From positions 1 to 24,019 of the IMG/VR virus record IMGVR_UViG_3300025879_000108: DNA of 24,019 nt; one strand, written 5' to 3'. A program made the position numbers and the translations under genes. Shown one piece after another: positions 973 to 18,914 of the stretch (its first letter is position 1; the number at the start of each line of letters is the position of its first letter). The stretch comes from a virus. Below the pieces are notes generated by a model. It did no database searches and was not told where the DNA came from. It saw only the letters and a list, made by a program, of their open reading frames with translations.

Positions 973-980
973 CATAAATA
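973..980 (+). promoter_or_regulatory. T4-like late promoter of the sulfotransferase gene
   Basis: CATAAATA on the plus strand, one base from the T4 late consensus TATAAATA recognised with the gp55 sigma factor. With T4 spacing (last A at -6), transcription would start at 986, the A of the ATG. Confidence 0.5.
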
Positions 981-985
981 TCACT

Positions 986-1546
986 ATGGCATTTCACTAC
1001 TATAATAATAGAATTAATCTCTGGGCTTCTGATCGTTGTGGCAGTAATACTCTATCCAATTATATCCATGCTGTTACCTTTAAGGATGCTAGTGGTTGGA
1101 ACGATACTGCTCATACCGATATACAGCAGTGGGTTGATCTTATCAATAATAAAGAAGAAGAATGTATCCCCGTTATTGTTATTCGTCATCCCTATGAAAG
1201 ACTTAATAGTGCTATTAAACTCCACGAACACTTTAAAGATATTCCCGTATCTGTTTTCTATAGTGAGACTGCTGGTCCTTATCTACATTATACTACCCGT
1301 AGAAAAGCTAAGGAAAGAATATTCTTTTTTTATATACCTACGGAAGAATTGCATCTATACTGCGGAGAGAATAGATATGGTCCCGTGATGAATGTGAGTA
1401 ATAGAGAGTTGCCTGAGGTTTTGCCTAATGGTTATGAGCCTGGGCAAATGGAGGCTGAGCTTAATCTATACAATAATATTATCAGTAACTATCCGAAAAT
1501 GCCCGTTTCGTTGTTTCATAGTTTGATTACTTCCCAGTCAAATTGA
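986..1546 (+). CDS. sulfotransferase-like protein (PAPS-binding P-loop family)
   Basis: A 186-aa protein probably transferring sulfate from PAPS to a sugar or small molecule in the host cytoplasm. LWASDRCGSNTLSNYI (residues 12-27) matches the 5'-phosphosulfate loop of sulfotransferases (RxGSxxLxN), and VIVIRHPYERLNSAIKLH (63-80) matches the 3'-phosphate motif with Arg67 and Ser75. It is about 70-100 aa shorter than typical members, so the acceptor-binding part is reduced. The ATG at 986 is chosen because the family motif starts 12 residues later and upstream codons do not look like protein. There is no clear Shine-Dalgarno, but a late promoter lies 6 bp upstream. It is one of three plus-strand genes here and overlaps the convergent GT2 gene by 31 bp at the 3' ends. 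Confidence 0.75.
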   Translation: MAFHYYNNRINLWASDRCGSNTLSNYIHAVTFKDASGWNDTAHTDIQQWVDLINNKEEECIPVIVIRHPYERLNSAIKLHEHFKDIPVSVFYSETAGPYLHYTTRRKAKERIFFFYIPTEELHLYCGENRYGPVMNVSNRELPEVLPNGYEPGQMEAELNLYNNIISNYPKMPVSLFHSLITSQSN

Positions 1547-7556: not shown

Positions 7557-7563
7557 ATAAATA
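7556..7563 (+). promoter_or_regulatory. T4-like late promoter for the plus-strand pair
   Basis: TATAAATA, an exact T4 late promoter consensus, on the plus strand. T4 spacing predicts a start at about 7569, giving a 28-nt leader with GGAG before the ATG at 7597. It overlaps the start codon of the opposite gene. Confidence 0.65.
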
Positions 7564-7579
7564 CCTAGTTAATGCTATT

Positions 7580-7587
7580 TATTTATG
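7580..7587 (-). promoter_or_regulatory. T4-like late promoter for the 2OG oxygenase gene
   Basis: CATAAATA on the minus strand; predicted start about 7574, 18 nt before the ATG at 7556. It lies inside the leader of the plus-strand gene. Confidence 0.55.
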
Positions 7588-7815: not shown

Positions 7816-8338
7816 ATTCTTCCTATTTAAAACGCCTAAGGAGTTCTGGATTGTAGATGAAAATACAATCCAGGATGTCCCTAAGCCACGGGAGATGTTA
7901 ATTAAAAACTCTAATGTGGAATCAGTGCGTAATTACTGCATCACACAAAACAAACAGAACATACCTATTGTGGATCGTTGCCGTGACCGCACAACTTGGC
8001 ACACACCTGAAGGGCGTGAAAGAATACGCCAAGCCAAGTTAGGTGAAAATCATCCTGCTGTAAAAAATGGTCGCTCCGAGGAGTTCCGTGAAAAAGTATC
8101 TAAAACTATGAAAGGTACTAGGCAGGGTGAATTCAATCCTATGTATGGGCGTAAACATTCTCCCGATGCCATAGCTAAAATTCGTGCCGCTGCCTATGAA
8201 AGACCTAAGCGCCGCTGGTGCGTTGAGCCCTCTGGTAAGCGGCATCTTGTCGCTTTAGATCATGAGTTGGCTGAGGGTTGGCAATGGGGTAGGACTTACG
8301 ATCCCTATCGTCCCAGCGAGGCATTACCCAAAGATTAA
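7799..8338 (+). CDS. NUMOD3-type DNA-binding protein without a visible nuclease domain
   Basis: A 179-aa protein. Two NUMOD3-like segments are visible: TPEGRERIRQAKLGENHPAV (about 73-92) and GEFNPMYGRKHSPDAIAKIR (about 113-132). NUMOD3 is a DNA-binding module attached to GIY-YIG and HNH homing endonucleases. The N-terminal 70 residues (FFLFKTPKEFWIVDENTIQD) and the C-terminus (RRWCVEPSGKRHLV, WQWGRTYDP) show no GIY-YIG or HNH motif, so it may be a degraded homing endonuclease or a sequence-specific binding protein. The start ATG at 7799 overlaps the previous gene and avoids a longer unlikely start at 7772. Convergent with the gene at 8367. Confidence 0.72.
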   Translation: MARASRFFLFKTPKEFWIVDENTIQDVPKPREMLIKNSNVESVRNYCITQNKQNIPIVDRCRDRTTWHTPEGRERIRQAKLGENHPAVKNGRSEEFREKVSKTMKGTRQGEFNPMYGRKHSPDAIAKIRAAAYERPKRRWCVEPSGKRHLVALDHELAEGWQWGRTYDPYRPSEALPKD

Positions 8339-9449: not shown

Positions 9450-9750
9450 CGCCCAGTGTTTCCGATATGCCTTTTTTAATTGCGGCAAGTGTGCCTATTT
9501 GGAAGAAGCCTTGGGCTTCTTCCGAGGACAATTCATATGTTCTAGGCTCAGGTATGTTTGCAATCTTAGCCCACTCATCCCATTCATCAGATGAGACGAG
9601 CACATAATCCTTACTTAAATCACCTAGTGCAACTCGCATACCTTCACGGATAAATGAGTTTACTGTATCCTCATCCATATCAAAAACAACTGTGGCACTA
9701 CCATCATCATTCTCAATATAGTTTGTTACCTCAATAGTTTGAACTGCCAT
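9442..9750 (-). CDS. uncharacterised 102-aa acidic protein
   Basis: Begins MAVQTIEVTNYIENDDGSAT; predicted strands then helices, rich in Asp and Glu (FDMDEDTVNSFIREGM). The start overlaps the RNase H stop by one base (TAATG). No family recognised. Confidence 0.65.
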   Translation of the reverse strand: MAVQTIEVTNYIENDDGSATVVFDMDEDTVNSFIREGMRVALGDLSKDYVLVSSDEWDEWAKIANIPEPRTYELSSEEAQGFFQIGTLAAIKKGISETLGDE

Positions 9751-12640: not shown

Positions 12641-13559
12641 TTCGTTTCTTATCAATTAGCCAATTTAGTTTTGTTCTCAAAGTTCTATCTAACCTAGAAA
12701 ACTGTGCGATTTCTGTGTCAGATAACTCTGCCTCAGGTTTCGCGGTGAAAACTTCTTCTGCGGTTTCTGTGGCAGTCTCATCCAAAGAGGTAAAGGTAAT
12801 CATCTCACCTCTATACTCTCGCAAACTCATATTTGCCGCAATCACCAGCAAAATAGCAAGTGGGTCGAAAACAAATATAAGCATTATTATAATGAATCTA
12901 ACGGCTTTGTCAATAGTATTCTTATCTGTTTGGTCATATATCATCTCAGCAATATACTTGATAGGACCAACTTCTAATTCTATCTCAAGGGCGGCGCTTT
13001 GGAGCGGGCTAAGTGCTGCCTGTATTTCCTCAATGGATTCAGATGCTCTTTGTATTGAAAGATTTGTTGCGGCTCGCTCTTCTCTTTGGCTTTCTCTAAC
13101 TGCAATAGAACCTTCGGGTCCTCTGATTCTATCATAGTCAATGAGTGTTTGTACTGCGCCATCCAACTGTTGTAGAACCTTTTCTCCATCGGCGATAATT
13201 CTTCGCTCGTTAGCAATTTGTCTTTCCAAGTTTTGAATTTGTAATTCATTATCACCCCCTACTGATATTGTGTGTTCTAAATGTGCTTTGGATAAAAAGC
13301 CAAAGATACCCATAGATGTAATAAGTGAAAGGACAATTACTGCTACTGTAAAGTAAGACTTCATCACCAATGCGGCTTTGTCCCAATAACGATAGACCCA
13401 AGATGCTGTAACAAGTTTAGCAATTTCTAACACAACACCCATTGCTAGGATAGACATAGCGGCGGCAGGAAAGATTGACATGAGACCGACAATCGAAAAA
13501 TAGCCTGCGACTGCTGATACAGCAAGTGCTGAAAATAATAGTAATATTATGAAGAACAT
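12624..13559 (-). CDS. four-TM membrane protein with a central coiled coil
   Basis: A 311-aa inner-membrane protein. TM segments lie at about 3-25, 32-55, 67-90 and 219-243. Between TM3 and TM4 is a long charged helical stretch (about 103-195) predicted as a coiled coil (LERQIANERRIIADGEKVLQ). The tail is acidic, then basic (KLNWLIDKKRNENKS). Similar proteins recur in marine myophages without known function, as far as I recall. Overlaps the methyltransferase by 13 nt. The topology could place the coiled coil in the periplasm. Confidence 0.75.
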   Translation of the reverse strand: MFFIILLLFSALAVSAVAGYFSIVGLMSIFPAAAMSILAMGVVLEIAKLVTASWVYRYWDKAALVMKSYFTVAVIVLSLITSMGIFGFLSKAHLEHTISVGGDNELQIQNLERQIANERRIIADGEKVLQQLDGAVQTLIDYDRIRGPEGSIAVRESQREERAATNLSIQRASESIEEIQAALSPLQSAALEIELEVGPIKYIAEMIYDQTDKNTIDKAVRFIIIMLIFVFDPLAILLVIAANMSLREYRGEMITFTSLDETATETAEEVFTAKPEAELSDTEIAQFSRLDRTLRTKLNWLIDKKRNENKS

Positions 13560-14062
13560 TTTGTGTATCCCATCTTTGAGCCTCTTCTAGTGTTTAACTT
13601 AATTCCACTATCTGTTATAGCATCAGCAACATCCCGCATAACTATGTCATCAAGCACAAGAAACTTTGTTTTATGTTTCCAATATTGTATCATATTATAT
13701 GTTGATGTTTGAGAATGGCAGGCGTCATAGAATACTACATCATAATCACCTATATTAGAAAAAATTTCTCCTGTCATGGGGTGTACATGAGGAATCTTAC
13801 TATGTGTAATGTTATAATCCTTAGTATTTTCTAAGAACTTATTATAAACGATATTACAATCCGTATTATCTGTATGTGCGTCCTCAGCCCATGAGTCTAA
13901 ACAATGCACAACACCACCGAGACTAGCCCATGCTACAGAGCTTTTACCATATAGACTGCCTATCTCCAGTACTGTAAAACTACCATCAAACTGTGATGCA
14001 ACTTCTTGCATTAACAGATAGTCGGTGTACATAATGTAACCGGGTATATCTTTCCAGGTCAT
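13547..14062 (-). CDS. SAM-dependent methyltransferase (Methyltransf_24-like)
   Basis: A 171-aa class I methyltransferase. Motif I is VLEIGSLYGKSSVAWA (31-46), the acidic ribose-binding residue is Asp56 (VHCLDSW), and post-motifs are YDVVFYDACHSQ and FLVLDDI. This type often methylates sugars or small molecules. The start at 14062 (MTWKDI) gives the 4-nt ATGA overlap and has GGAAG 5 nt upstream; a start at 14074 would add MEAK. Confidence 0.78.
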   Translation of the reverse strand: MTWKDIPGYIMYTDYLLMQEVASQFDGSFTVLEIGSLYGKSSVAWASLGGVVHCLDSWAEDAHTDNTDCNIVYNKFLENTKDYNITHSKIPHVHPMTGEIFSNIGDYDVVFYDACHSQTSTYNMIQYWKHKTKFLVLDDIVMRDVADAITDSGIKLNTRRGSKMGYTKCSS

Positions 14063-14397
14063 TTTGGCTTCCATTCTATAGGTTCAAAGTCTGCAAGTGG
14101 TTCTTTATTTAGACGAATGTTCAACATTGAATTGAGACATTTAGGATCGTGCCGCTGTTGCCATTGCAACAAAAACTCCTGCATCTTAGCATGGGATTTT
14201 TTCTCAAATTCAGCAATGGTATCTTTTGTTAGTTCACCGTCATATTGTAGTACATATTTGGATGAGCCATAATACTTTTCATAGAGCTTTTGAGTTTTAC
14301 CACTGTAGCCTATATAATAGGTCCCGTCCGGGAAGTATGTGCAGTAAACTCTGTGAATTTGCTTTTCTTTAGGCTTTCGCTTTTTCTTCGCCGGCAT
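14059..14397 (-). CDS. GIY-YIG-type endonuclease
   Basis: A 112-aa single-domain protein. HRVYCTYFPDGTYYIGYSGK (15-34) is the GIY-YIG core (VY at 17-18, YIG at 28-30), followed by YYGSSKYV. Glu74 and the CLNSMLN segment are candidates for the metal-binding Glu and Asn. The usual catalytic Arg soon after YIG is not obvious (Lys34 or Lys37 instead), so activity is uncertain. The basic N-terminus (KKKRKPKEKQ) could bind DNA; no NUMOD domain. The start codon sits at the end of a 10-bp RNA hairpin with the ribosome site in and beside the loop, preceded by a late promoter. Confidence 0.75.
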   Translation of the reverse strand: MPAKKKRKPKEKQIHRVYCTYFPDGTYYIGYSGKTQKLYEKYYGSSKYVLQYDGELTKDTIAEFEKKSHAKMQEFLLQWQQRHDPKCLNSMLNIRLNKEPLADFEPIEWKPK

Positions 14398-14420
14398 AAT
14401 ATATCCTCTAGATATATTAT
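14396..14420 (-). promoter_or_regulatory. hairpin around the ribosome site of the GIY-YIG gene
   Basis: A perfect 10-bp inverted repeat on the minus strand: ATAATATATC (14420-14411), loop TAGAG, GATATATTAT (14405-14396). The ribosome site AGAGG is in the loop and first stem base, and the AUG overlaps the stem end. The upstream gene's stop codon is also within the left arm. Confidence 0.65.
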
Positions 14421-15376
14421 TTATGCGTGTTTATAATGACCTTTCCAGATAGGATATGTTCAGACAGTACGGCTCTTGTATGTTCTACATCATATGTTTC
14501 GGGTATGGTATATTGAGCGAATTGCTTATCATCCATCCACCAGTTCTCAACATCAAAGAACCAGTAGGAAGTTTTATGATTGCTTAATTTTTCTTCCATT
14601 AGATTGAAGAAGTCTAGTATCTCATTACAGTTTTTTCTCTGTACAACATAGGCAAGTTTAATATTATCAATACCTGTCTCGTTGTTTAAGTTCTCAATAT
14701 TTCTCATTAGAACCTGCCAACTACCACCCCTACGAATTTCCTCATAAGTCTCTTTACATGCGGCATCAACTGATAGTGTTATCTGAAAGGTATAGTTTTT
14801 TAAATTACTAAGTTTCTCTAGATTTTCTTTACTAAGAAGCATACCATTAGTGTACAACTCTACCTTTTTTAAAGCAGGATAGTTTTCAGGCGTTAGGCTC
14901 TGTAATAGTTTGAATGTGCGTTTGTTATAAAGTGGGTCACCTGAGCCAGAAGTTACAAAGGTGGTAACACTTTCAGATATTTCTGATAATTCCCTTTCTA
15001 TGTCTCTACCAGACTCATCATCTAGAATGAAATCCTTACGGCATGTGGGGCATGCCAAATTACAAGTTCTATCTTCAGCAGACACTACATGCAAAGGTGC
15101 TGTATTGTCCTTATATGGTTCAACATCTCTAAACAGTAAGTTTTCAGCACCCTGACGGTGGGAATATAGGAAGGGGCAACTATCTTTGCAATACCTATAT
15201 GAACCATCTAATACCGACTCGCGGATAACCTTTGCTTGAGAACTATTAAACTTCTCAAGAATAGTATTGCCTTGGAGTTCAGGGTGATTGTTATGAGAGG
15301 GACAGCAAACACTATCCCCCCCATCAACATGCATTTCATACATTGCAAAGGGGGCTATACAATATTTAGCCGTCAT
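14417..15376 (-). CDS. radical SAM protein with N-terminal SPASM/twitch-like Cys cluster
   Basis: A 319-aa radical SAM enzyme. The core 4Fe-4S motif is CNLACPTC (Cys105, Cys109, Cys112), followed by FVTSGSGDPL (the GGE-like strand) and VELYTNGMLL and ITLSVDAACK strands. Before the core are Cys6 (CIAPF), Cys24-Cys25 and Cys63/Cys67, resembling a SPASM or twitch auxiliary cluster placed at the N-terminus. Such proteins modify peptides or sugars by hydrogen abstraction; the substrate is unknown. The ATG at 15376 is preferred over the GTG at 15403 because the extra residues are basic and the Cys motif starts immediately after. Overlaps the 59-aa gene by 11 nt. Confidence 0.8.
   Translation of the reverse strand: MTAKYCIAPFAMYEMHVDGGDSVCCPSHNNHPELQGNTILEKFNSSQAKVIRESVLDGSYRYCKDSCPFLYSHRQGAENLLFRDVEPYKDNTAPLHVVSAEDRTCNLACPTCRKDFILDDESGRDIERELSEISESVTTFVTSGSGDPLYNKRTFKLLQSLTPENYPALKKVELYTNGMLLSKENLEKLSNLKNYTFQITLSVDAACKETYEEIRRGGSWQVLMRNIENLNNETGIDNIKLAYVVQRKNCNEILDFFNLMEEKLSNHKTSYWFFDVENWWMDDKQFAQYTIPETYDVEHTRAVLSEHILSGKVIINTHK
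14418..14425 (-). promoter_or_regulatory. T4-like late promoter of the GIY-YIG gene
   Basis: CATAAATA on the minus strand overlapping the stop codon of the radical SAM gene. T4 spacing puts the start around 14412, at the end of the hairpin's left arm, so a late transcript would lack most of the stem. Confidence 0.55.
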
Positions 15377-15545
15377 CTGTTTTAGGCTCTTCCTCTTCTT
15401 CACCGTCCCAATTGAGATCTGTCACCATTGCCTGTTTGACTTTTTGATCCTTTTTGCCAAAAATTAAATCCCAATTGGAATCAAACTGATCCTGGTCTGT
15501 AACTTTTCTAGGCTTACTGCCCTTCCCGCCATGCCATTGGCTCAT
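15366..15545 (-). CDS. short acidic phage protein (59 aa)
   Basis: Begins MSQWHGGKGSKPRKVTDQDQ, contains FDSNWDLIFGKK and ends EEEEEPKTDDG. WHGGKGSxxR followed by FDxNWDxIF is a pattern I recall in short conserved marine myophage proteins of unknown role. The start overlaps the zinc-ribbon stop by 4 nt (ATGA). Confidence 0.75.
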   Translation of the reverse strand: MSQWHGGKGSKPRKVTDQDQFDSNWDLIFGKKDQKVKQAMVTDLNWDGEEEEEPKTDDG

Positions 15546-15721: not shown

Positions 15722-16708
15722 CTACGCCGCAGAACCCCATACATCTCCCCAATCACCTGACAATGCGCCTCGGGCATAGTCTGTTGCTCGGTTTTCAAAG
15801 AAGTTTGTATGTGTTGGTGCGTTAATCATTTCCTCAACCCACAGTAGAGGATTCTTTTTAATTTTAAAAATACCTTTAAGACCAAGACTAATGAGTCTGC
15901 GGTCACAGATATATCTGATATATTTCTTAACATCTTCGGATGAAAGATTTTCCATTGGACCCATGGCAAATGCCAGGTCAATAAATTTATCCTCAAGCTC
16001 TACCATCTTCTCAGCAATAGAATAGATCTTACCTTTGAGGTCATCGTTCCAAATCTCTAGGTTTTCCTCAACATAGGTACGGAACAGTTTAATCATTGAC
16101 TCGGCGTGCATTGTCTCATCAACAATTGACCAAGTAACAATCTGACCCATGCCTTTCATTTTGCCGTGTCGAGGGAAGTTCAGCAACATAATAAACGAGG
16201 AGAATAACTGCATGCCTTCAGTAAATGCAGAAAAAGCGGCAATGTTTGTTGCTACTGTTTTCTTGTCTGCATCCATGTTAGACAGTTCCATAAAGTATTC
16301 ATGCTTGTCCTTCATAGCCTCATACTCAAGAAACTCATTGTAGGTGCTCTCTGGCATTCCTAAGGTCTCTATGAGGTGCGAATAAGCCGCAACATGTAAT
16401 GCTTCTCTTGCCGCAAACCCTGCAAGCATCATGCGAACCTCAGGCTGTGGGAAGTGAGGCAGGTAATTTGTCACATAACCACCCGCAACATCAATATCAC
16501 CCTGTGTAAAGAAACGAAAGATATTAGTTAGAAAGGCTTGTTCGGCTTTAGTTAGTTTGTTTTTCCAGTCCTTTACATCCTCTGCCATAGGGACTTCGGT
16601 GTGTAGCCAGTGAGACTGCTCATGTTTTAACCAAGCATCATAAGCCCAAGGATAATTAAAAGGTTTAAAATATTCTCTAGGCTCTTGCAAGTTTTGTTTC
16701 TTCGACAT
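15722..16708 (-). CDS. nrdB: ribonucleoside-diphosphate reductase class I beta subunit
   Basis: A 328-aa R2 protein that carries the diiron-tyrosyl cofactor and works with NrdA to make dNDPs. Iron ligands fit the family: an Asp in TQGDIDVAGG (about Asp71), Glu102 and His105 (REALHVAAYSH), Glu164 (TEGMQLF), Glu198 and His201 (VDETMHAES). Tyr109, four residues after His105, matches the radical tyrosine of E. coli R2 (Tyr122). The C-terminus lacks an obvious long tail. Overlaps the cobalamin-type radical SAM gene by 32 nt and is separated from nrdA by five genes. Confidence 0.93.
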   Translation of the reverse strand: MSKKQNLQEPREYFKPFNYPWAYDAWLKHEQSHWLHTEVPMAEDVKDWKNKLTKAEQAFLTNIFRFFTQGDIDVAGGYVTNYLPHFPQPEVRMMLAGFAAREALHVAAYSHLIETLGMPESTYNEFLEYEAMKDKHEYFMELSNMDADKKTVATNIAAFSAFTEGMQLFSSFIMLLNFPRHGKMKGMGQIVTWSIVDETMHAESMIKLFRTYVEENLEIWNDDLKGKIYSIAEKMVELEDKFIDLAFAMGPMENLSSEDVKKYIRYICDRRLISLGLKGIFKIKKNPLLWVEEMINAPTHTNFFENRATDYARGALSGDWGDVWGSAA

Positions 16709-18914
16709 GGGTATCCTCGTTCTCTATTAGGGTTAGCGTATTTTTAGCAGGGTGACGGTTCCGTCTATTGTCATATGTGCCGCCAGCTTCGGTCATATTG
16801 CTGGTAACAGTATAGTACTTATATTCCTCAGTTTCTTCAAATGTATTCCAATCCATTTTAGTGCGTAGTGTAAATGGATATACATGACTAGGATCAAACA
16901 TGTATGCCTTTTGACAATCCAAAATACTCTCATCAGTATCTGGTAGGAAGTGTTTTAAGGTTTGCCAAGCAATATCATAAATTTCTAATTTATGATCTAC
17001 AAAGTCTGTCTCTTTCTGATACAACCAAGCATGTGCAGAATCATTTTTTGTTTCTTCATCACAGGTACTTACCTTTACTCTTGCTTCTTGCATTGTTTCT
17101 TTAGGAGTACCTGTTGTCATCAGGTTATTTTTACCTGAGAACATTGCTTTAGGTTCTTCTTCCTTTTCATATCTATCGGCAGTAGTGACATTCTCCATAT
17201 TACTGTTACCTTTAGATTTTTCATAGAAGTTCATAGAGAAGATGGGTCTTTCCTCTTCCTCTTTTCCGTTTGGGGTCAACTCTAGGGGGGATGTTTTATC
17301 GGTTGCAATAAGTTGAGACCAGTCTCCACCCTTCTCGTTTGCAATAAGCAATCGACCATCAGCTACAGCTTCACCGCTTGCAGGTTTTTGCCTGTGGTCA
17401 GGAATATTTTTGCGGAGTTGGAACCATCCCTTACCTGCATCTTCACCCACTTGGTCTTCTGTAAGATATTTACTTACACTTCTTTTAATAGTATTAAAGT
17501 GGTCATCAATATGATTAGTAGATGGAATTAGAGAGAACATTTTTTCATAAAAGTCATTATAAGAAATGCCTTTTTGTCTTGCATATCGTGCAAGAGCATA
17601 TGTATATCCATATACATGAAAACGAACAACCATCCAAGAATACATATATGCTTCAATCATATCCTCAGTAGGCATATCCTTTGTACCACTAACAACTTCT
17701 ACATATTCAGGAATATCATCTGGGTCATTATAAAGGAAGATATAGTCCTTAACTAGTACAGTTTTAATACCGTACTTCTCTCTTGATTCAATTGTAGACA
17801 TGTCACTGTTCTTAAGAGTTTGTGCATACCAAACCTCAACGCAATTATGTTGACCGGCTTCAAGTATCTCACCCATACCTTTTTTCCAGGACTCTAGTGT
17901 CTCACCGGGTAAGCCGATAATCATTTCACTGTATGCATCCAAATCAGCCTCTTCAGTTTTATCTAACATTTCATTAAGTTTATTAATGTCCATGTTAGTT
18001 CGCTTAATTTCTTCTAGTACAGTGGGGCTCATACTTTGTTGACTAAGGGTGATGCCTTTACCCAATCTACCAAGAGCCTTACCAATTTCAATAACATGGT
18101 CATTACTGTTCTTAGCATATTGGATATTAATTTTATCCATGCGACTATTATCTAAATGTTTGTGAAACATCTTAGCAAGGTCCACATCCCGTTTTTTGAA
18201 AATGCCAAAGTTTGCATCTGCCATAAAAACATAGGCAATAGGATTCTTACTCATCCAAATAATTTCTTCTTCTAACCTTTCAAACTCATATTGTTTAACT
18301 TTCGAGTATGTTAAACTTCCCCAATCACAAAAGGTGCAGGAGAAAGGACAACCACGGGATGTTTCAAATGGTGTTTGCCAAATAATATCAGGGTTGTCTG
18401 CAATCAGTTTATCAAACACCCCGGTAGTAAACGGGCTAGGGAGTTCTGATAGATCAGTAATTCGTTGTCCAGTGTATATAGTTTTTAGAGGTTTGTTGTT
18501 GTGTATATCTTCCAACAACATTGTAAATTGTTTTTCGCCCTCACTTAACATGACCAAGTCAATCCAAGGATATGTATCAAGGTCGCTTTCATTAACCTGT
18601 GGGCCGCCAAATGCTATGATACAATTAGGCCAGCGTTCCTTAATTGCGTATGCCATGTGCAGATTGTATTGTTCATTCCATACATATGTACTAAACCCTG
18701 CAAGTACAGGCTCTTCCATTTTTTCAAGAACTTCATCAATTTTATCTCTTGCAAAATAAAGCCCATCGAGATTCCAATGCTCCTTAACAATGTCAGACTT
18801 TTCATTAGCATATGCCCACAAACAACCTGCTGAATAGGGTAGCCAGTTCTGTGTAGTACCCTGAAAGTTCATGGTGTATTGTGGTTGAAAAAGATATAAA
18901 TTTTTTCTTGCCAT
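16677..18914 (-). CDS. cobalamin-binding-type radical SAM protein with a large unassigned C-terminus
   Basis: A 745-aa protein. Residues 1-145 form a B12-binding-like domain (LAGFSTYVWNEQYNLHMAYA, IIAFGGPQVNES, VMLSEGEKQF), though I see no DxHxxG His motif, as in many members. The radical SAM core has SRGCPFSCTFCDWGS with Cys189, Cys193 and Cys196. From about 480 on is a part I cannot assign, with acidic linkers and a folded C-terminus (LDCQKAYMFDPSHVYPFTLR). Members methylate unreactive carbons or rearrange substrates. The start at 18914 gives the TAATG overlap with the epimerase stop. The neighbouring epimerase and methyltransferase suggest a sugar-type substrate. Confidence 0.8.
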   Translation of the reverse strand: MARKNLYLFQPQYTMNFQGTTQNWLPYSAGCLWAYANEKSDIVKEHWNLDGLYFARDKIDEVLEKMEEPVLAGFSTYVWNEQYNLHMAYAIKERWPNCIIAFGGPQVNESDLDTYPWIDLVMLSEGEKQFTMLLEDIHNNKPLKTIYTGQRITDLSELPSPFTTGVFDKLIADNPDIIWQTPFETSRGCPFSCTFCDWGSLTYSKVKQYEFERLEEEIIWMSKNPIAYVFMADANFGIFKKRDVDLAKMFHKHLDNSRMDKINIQYAKNSNDHVIEIGKALGRLGKGITLSQQSMSPTVLEEIKRTNMDINKLNEMLDKTEEADLDAYSEMIIGLPGETLESWKKGMGEILEAGQHNCVEVWYAQTLKNSDMSTIESREKYGIKTVLVKDYIFLYNDPDDIPEYVEVVSGTKDMPTEDMIEAYMYSWMVVRFHVYGYTYALARYARQKGISYNDFYEKMFSLIPSTNHIDDHFNTIKRSVSKYLTEDQVGEDAGKGWFQLRKNIPDHRQKPASGEAVADGRLLIANEKGGDWSQLIATDKTSPLELTPNGKEEEERPIFSMNFYEKSKGNSNMENVTTADRYEKEEEPKAMFSGKNNLMTTGTPKETMQEARVKVSTCDEETKNDSAHAWLYQKETDFVDHKLEIYDIAWQTLKHFLPDTDESILDCQKAYMFDPSHVYPFTLRTKMDWNTFEETEEYKYYTVTSNMTEAGGTYDNRRNRHPAKNTLTLIENEDTHVEETKLARA

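Follow-up and report, generated by a model that had tools for sequence, protein, structure and literature searches.

The start region of a small GIY-YIG-like gene in the analyzed DNA of a marine T4-like phage (IMG/VR record IMGVR_UViG_3300025879_000108, 24,019 nucleotides, hereafter the window) combines a T4-type late-promoter-like sequence with a predicted RNA hairpin over the ribosome-binding site. The best explanation, to which we assign a probability of roughly 0.8, is a switch that would permit translation only late in infection. RNA reading in from the nrd operon would carry both hairpin arms, fold the hairpin, and thereby hide the Shine-Dalgarno (SD) sequence and the AUG. Late in infection, the gp55/gp33 RNA polymerase would initiate at CATAAATA, and the resulting RNA, beginning at about 14412 and lacking eight of the ten left-arm bases, would be translated. 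The nuclease domain would then be made when DNA is replicated, recombined, and packaged. From the features described below we infer that the promoter is active, where it starts, that the early RNA is repressed, and what the enzyme does. Selection appears to maintain the T4 late-switch design in uncultured phages that are widespread in the ocean, here on a small, conserved, nuclease-like gene.

Predicted late promoter and hairpin in front of the GIY-YIG-like gene

The element lies on the minus strand, in the context CATAAATAATATATCTAGAGGATATATTATG. Positions 14420-14396 read ATAATATATC-TAGAG-GATATATTAT, a perfect 10-bp inverted repeat around AGAGG. The left arm, ATAATATATC (14411..14420), is supported by sequence, folding, and covariation. 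It is the perfect reverse complement of the right arm, GATATATTAT (14396..14405), from which it is separated by a 5-nt loop; the last two bases of the right arm are the A and U of the start codon (AUG, 14397-14395). The SD-like AGAGG, recognized from its sequence, occupies 14405..14409, partly in the loop and partly in the stem; the stem therefore lies over SD and AUG, as in the T4-type late-promoter/RBS-hairpin switch. The isolated hairpin folds at -7.3 kcal/mol, and a 61-nt piece containing it at -13.5 kcal/mol (z -4.0, with 0 of 200 shuffles as good), whereas an RNA starting at 14412 lacks a stable fold (-0.2). Repeat and coordinates thus agree with a preliminary description of this DNA, as does the loss of the structure from the late RNA. 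Across the whole window, four perfect inverted repeats of at least 10 bp with loops of 3-10 nt were found, compared to a mean of 0.25 and a maximum of 2 in 40 first-order Markov sequences. The other three have loops of 3-8 nt and lie at 7846-7873, 9501-9523, and 16974-16996.

The late-promoter-like CATAAATA (NATAAATA), assigned by its motif, spans 14418..14425 on the minus strand and overlaps the left arm by 3 nt. In cyanophage S-PM2, NATAAATA has been described as the late motif (PMC2984593). T4 late boxes comprise 8 bp starting at -13 (PMC2988020); with this numbering the box extends from -13 to -6 and the predicted late +1 falls at 14412. As the left arm begins directly after ATAAATA, a late start would remove most of it, and by this predicted +1 the late RNA would lack the 5' arm. 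From the window alone the promoter call is weak, because ATAAATA is not enriched there (9 found versus 9.45 expected) and CATAAATA carries at -13 the minority base C, which speaks against a promoter; in relatives, 56 of the 68 late-type sites that are SD-led have T at this position. The call is carried instead by conservation, as ATAAATA stands in the same place in nearly all relatives. On this comparison, the earlier proposals of a T4-like late promoter overlapping the left arm, and of its union with an RBS hairpin and a +1 near 14412, are supported. Elsewhere in the window, at 7557-7586, late-type boxes occur on both strands within 30 bp and face divergent genes of 76 or 72 aa (+) and 163 aa (-); their ATAAATA and TATTTAT are complementary and could also form RBS stems.

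The 112-aa, single-domain GIY-YIG-like ORF (14059..14397, minus strand) is overlapped by a downstream methyltransferase gene (Methyltransf_24; 13547..14074, minus, ORF and profile). Upstream lies a radical SAM gene (14417..15403, minus, likewise from ORF and profile), and farther upstream nrdB for the ribonucleotide reductase small subunit (15722..16708, minus), the constant upstream neighbour in relatives. The TAA stop of the radical SAM gene (14419-14417) falls inside the left arm of the hairpin, which the preliminary description had missed. Ribosomes terminating there could open the hairpin, so that coupling could leak.

The GIY-YIG-like protein

Pfam, PHROGs, and NCBIfam run directly on the window protein returned nothing useful. 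Within the family, phrog_314 matches the relative L060 (E 2.8e-6), PF01541 weakly matches a relative that is 33% identical (E 0.046), and hhalign of the family to the T4 Seg protein alignment yields E 1.8e-4 at a probability of 49%. Residues Y18, Y28-I29-G30, E74, N89, and N93 are invariant in 39 sequences and follow the GIY-YIG catalytic pattern Y...YIG...E...N; the family pattern YIG...GS...E...N likewise fits GIY-YIG. The structure model (pLDDT 76.7) displays the order strand-strand-helix-strand-helix. A PDB fold search with this model gave no significant match, with the UPF0213 entry 1zg2 second at E 0.61, and a PDB sequence search gave chance matches only. The evidence for the assignment is weak but consistent, and from it we infer nuclease activity. 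The earlier naming of a GIY-YIG gene is in keeping with phrog_314, the alignment to Seg proteins, and the catalytic pattern, though Pfam does not call the window protein. A replacement of T4 endonuclease VII (gp49) was considered and rejected. PF02945 is absent from the four searched GIY-carrying contigs, and also from the GIY-less HTVC008M, Melnitz, Syn9, and P-SSM2, so that its absence says nothing.

Relatives and genomic place

The 112-aa protein has 117 matching stretches in viral contigs, of which the best 80 were kept, mostly 80-92% identical. At least 80 close relatives of the gene are thus present in HTVC008M-like marine viral contigs. In one contig carrying the gene (G001), the major capsid protein is 70% identical to that of Pelagibacter phage HTVC008M (Kyanoviridae). 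Relatives of the late machinery are present in contigs carrying the gene, namely of the late sigma factor gp55 in G001 and G004, and of gp33 in G001 and G002. The gene was not found in T4, Syn9, P-SSM2, HTVC008M, or Melnitz, and a DNA-level search of the locus in named phages gave no match. Kolga-like pelagiphages carry a second subfamily at about 33% identity, and in Kolga itself the gene directly precedes the lysozyme and terminase genes. From this terminase neighbour and the expected expression timing, a role in late recombination or packaging may be guessed.

The usual gene order is nrdB, variable genes, GIY, a ~320-aa protein, small genes, and an RNase-H-like gene (rnh), with the last genes provisionally named by likeness to the T4-like order. 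The nrdB ... GIY ... rnh neighbourhood is kept in nearly all loci, while the gene directly upstream of GIY varies. We regard GIY as a fixed operon gene that is not obviously mobile; an I-TevI-like mobile or homing gene was rejected on synteny, as nearly all loci share one neighbourhood rather than scattered or intronic sites. The kinship with intron homing endonucleases such as I-TevI that had been drawn at the outset is not supported, given the single genomic place in nearly all relatives and the absence of a C-terminal DNA-binding region. G004, which carries the small GIY gene, contains two more GIY-YIG genes above the Pfam cut-off, at 30199-30444 and 35434-35667 (-) (L101), the second of which is Seg-like.

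Covariation across the gene tree

ATAAATA and the hairpin precede the gene over most of its tree, with compensatory change. The loci fall into classes that differ in the distance from box to ATG, which is 27 or 30 nt in class A1 and 20-22 nt in class A2, to which the window belongs. In class A3 (4 loci) the stem is shifted off the SD, and the sequestering stem is absent from these four loci and from L072. In class B (22 loci) the hairpin is absent, and a few loci have CTAAATA in place of ATAAATA. Class B forms one side of a branch with a support of 92 (SH-aLRT, quick search), and the window together with L017 lies next to class B in the tree.

Among 16 distinct relatives of the A1 type, 97.2% of cells are paired, with 28 cells changed on both sides compared to 11.4 in shuffles, where cells count sequences rather than events. 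Slid controls of the same type reach 29-60%. In the six sequences of the window type, all cells (100%) are paired, and three pairs show double changes. The left arm has changed at least eight times on the gene tree. Furthermore, an open-arm scan of the collection found complementary arms in 11 of 11 distinct hits before this gene and in 1 of 7 elsewhere. Covariation is strong evidence for an RNA helix, and the comparative support is unusually good here, indicating that an RNA hairpin is being kept. Stem bases neither conserved nor covarying in relatives would have spoken against the original proposal, and these pairing frequencies leave it standing.

The ORF upstream of the gene in A1 relatives continues through the hairpin and terminates 29-83 nt beyond the AUG. 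Because this frame runs through promoter and hairpin, different upstream proteins share the C-terminal tail INS(V/T)SD(D/N)E(G/D/E)(T/V)LD. Its V...T versus T...V swaps follow the stem, which fits selection on RNA rather than on protein. Judging from the shared tail, box, hairpin, and gene may constitute a single block that has become linked to various upstream genes.

At 20 C, the SD region is predicted to be unpaired with a mean probability of 0.58 in the late RNA versus 0.29 in the long RNA for A1, and of 0.65 versus 0.45 for A2, while the accessibility of the AUG itself changes little in either class. The predicted gain of about 1.5-2 fold, not all-or-none, argues against a strict switch. 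Ribosomes may also open the hairpin in the early RNA, at the stop in the window or by way of the A1 read-through ORF.

Alternative explanations

The position of the upstream stop within the left arm, and the A1 upstream ORF that crosses the hairpin, would also fit translational coupling, in which ribosomes finishing the radical SAM gene open the hairpin and the nuclease is made from the long RNA together with the upstream protein, as a matter of coupling rather than timing. We consider this unlikely. The upstream genes differ among relatives while ATAAATA and the hairpin stay, and in the other A2 loci the upstream stop ends 23-30 nt before the AUG. Coupling further leaves unexplained both the constant ATAAATA at the arm and the fact that class B has lost SD and hairpin together.

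As the repeat overlaps the promoter, it might instead be a palindromic DNA operator, for example for autorepression of the kind known from I-TevI, which represses its own late promoter (PMC2988022). This is highly improbable: the arms vary freely (GTGTTTC, GTACATC, CTACTACC, GTGTATT, ATATATC) with complementarity kept, among proteins that are 80-92% identical, and a DNA-binding tail of the I-TevI kind is missing from the protein. Least credible of all is that the repeat arose by chance in AT-rich sequence, or that it is an intrinsic terminator. The chance-level count of ATAAATA in the window would agree with the former, yet the number of repeats exceeds the control, no U run follows the stem 3' in the window sequence, and the covariation in relatives contradicts both. 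The late-only switch accordingly remains our preferred reading.

Class B and predicted leaderless late mRNAs

In class B, the ATG lies 4 or 5 nt after the box and no SD is present. Counted from the end of the box, +1 is the sixth base, which is the A of the AUG where the gap is 5 nt and the U where it is 4 nt. Class B late mRNAs are therefore predicted to be leaderless, although late starts may vary by a base.

ATAAATA stands 4-5 nt before the ATG of 24 genes in eight contigs, compared to at most 6 for 20 control permutations of the motif; ORF starts were picked mechanically and some may be wrong. HTVC008M has eight such genes, all at 5 nt and mostly at annotated starts. With the box 3-6 nt before the ATG, Melnitz has three, equalled by controls (maximum 3), and T4, Syn9, and P-SSM2 have none; a shorter length limit adds one 76-aa P-SSM2 ORF with the box at 5 nt. 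This open spacing test replaced the strict pattern TATAAATA-4 nt-ATGGC, which was not found in four cultured phages. SD-like 4-mers precede only 1 of 36 close-box genes, versus 92 of 153 genes with the box 19-49 nt away. In the window, ATAAATA also occurs 5 nt before an in-frame ATG at 974-986 (+), and the ORF of 186 aa that follows (986-1546), which has no SD, is a possible leaderless late gene.

Orthologs retain this spacing, as two genes of HTVC008M show. Relatives of the HTVC008M DNA end protector have the box at 5 nt in G001, G002, HTVC008M, and Melnitz, and their contexts in IMG/VR have it at 5 nt in 9 of 15 and at 8 nt in one; the five box-less contexts comprise one cut-off match and otherwise distant relatives. 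For baseplate gene 25, the gap is 4 nt in G001, 5 in G002, 5 in HTVC008M, and 16 in Melnitz. ATAAATA lies 5-9 nt before the ATG in all 49 distinct IMG/VR contexts of gp25 relatives (L304-L383), which predicts leaders of 0-4 nt.

We postulate that HTVC008M-like marine myophages probably make a class of leaderless or nearly leaderless late mRNAs, and that in the GIY-YIG family these replace the RBS hairpin as a second late-promoter-dependent translation device. The long RNA lacks an SD and only the late RNA starts at or next to the AUG, which would tie translation to the late promoter. The loss of the hairpin in class B, with the predicted late start moved onto the A of the AUG or the base after it, offers a natural comparison of two devices for the same timing. 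The layout also suggests that phages of SAR11-type hosts, for example the cultured HTVC008M, translate leaderless late mRNAs. A literature search, in which most matches were judged by title or abstract, found none on leaderless late RNAs in T4-like phages.

Comparison with known systems

The combination of late promoter and RBS hairpin is already known from T4, and the leaderless class is the newer point. The mechanism has been described for e, soc, 49, I-TevI, segB, and mobE (PMC3014915, PMC2988022). Since the free-standing segB and mobE are among these, as are e, soc, and 49, the arrangement is not restricted to introns. We scanned all records for ATAAATA followed after 16-39 nt by ATG, requiring a stem that begins immediately 3' of the box and reaches the start region. 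This gave 27 cases versus 3-19 for permuted motifs, so part of the list is chance. Among the cases are T4 I-TevI, e, 49, soc, and a gene resembling segB (named from their N-termini), as well as two ortholog pairs with hairpins, in G2/G4 and G4/G5.

The closest likeness is to T4 segB, also a free-standing GIY-YIG-type gene with a late box over the left arm and a hairpin over SD and AUG (PMC2988022). However, segB encodes a complete homing endonuclease that has a C-terminal region and moves between phages, whereas the window gene is a single domain of ~100 aa that stays at one position in its operon. In T4 I-TevI, e, soc, and gene 49, the late start likewise eliminates the 5' half of an inhibitory hairpin (PMC3014915), but apart from I-TevI they are unrelated genes, and I-TevI is intron-encoded and autorepressed. 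Aeh1 mobE, in turn, is a free-standing nuclease gene in the nrd region with an RBS hairpin and late expression (PMC2988022). In contrast to the window gene, it is of the HNH type, embedded in a ribonucleotide reductase gene, and a homing endonuclease.
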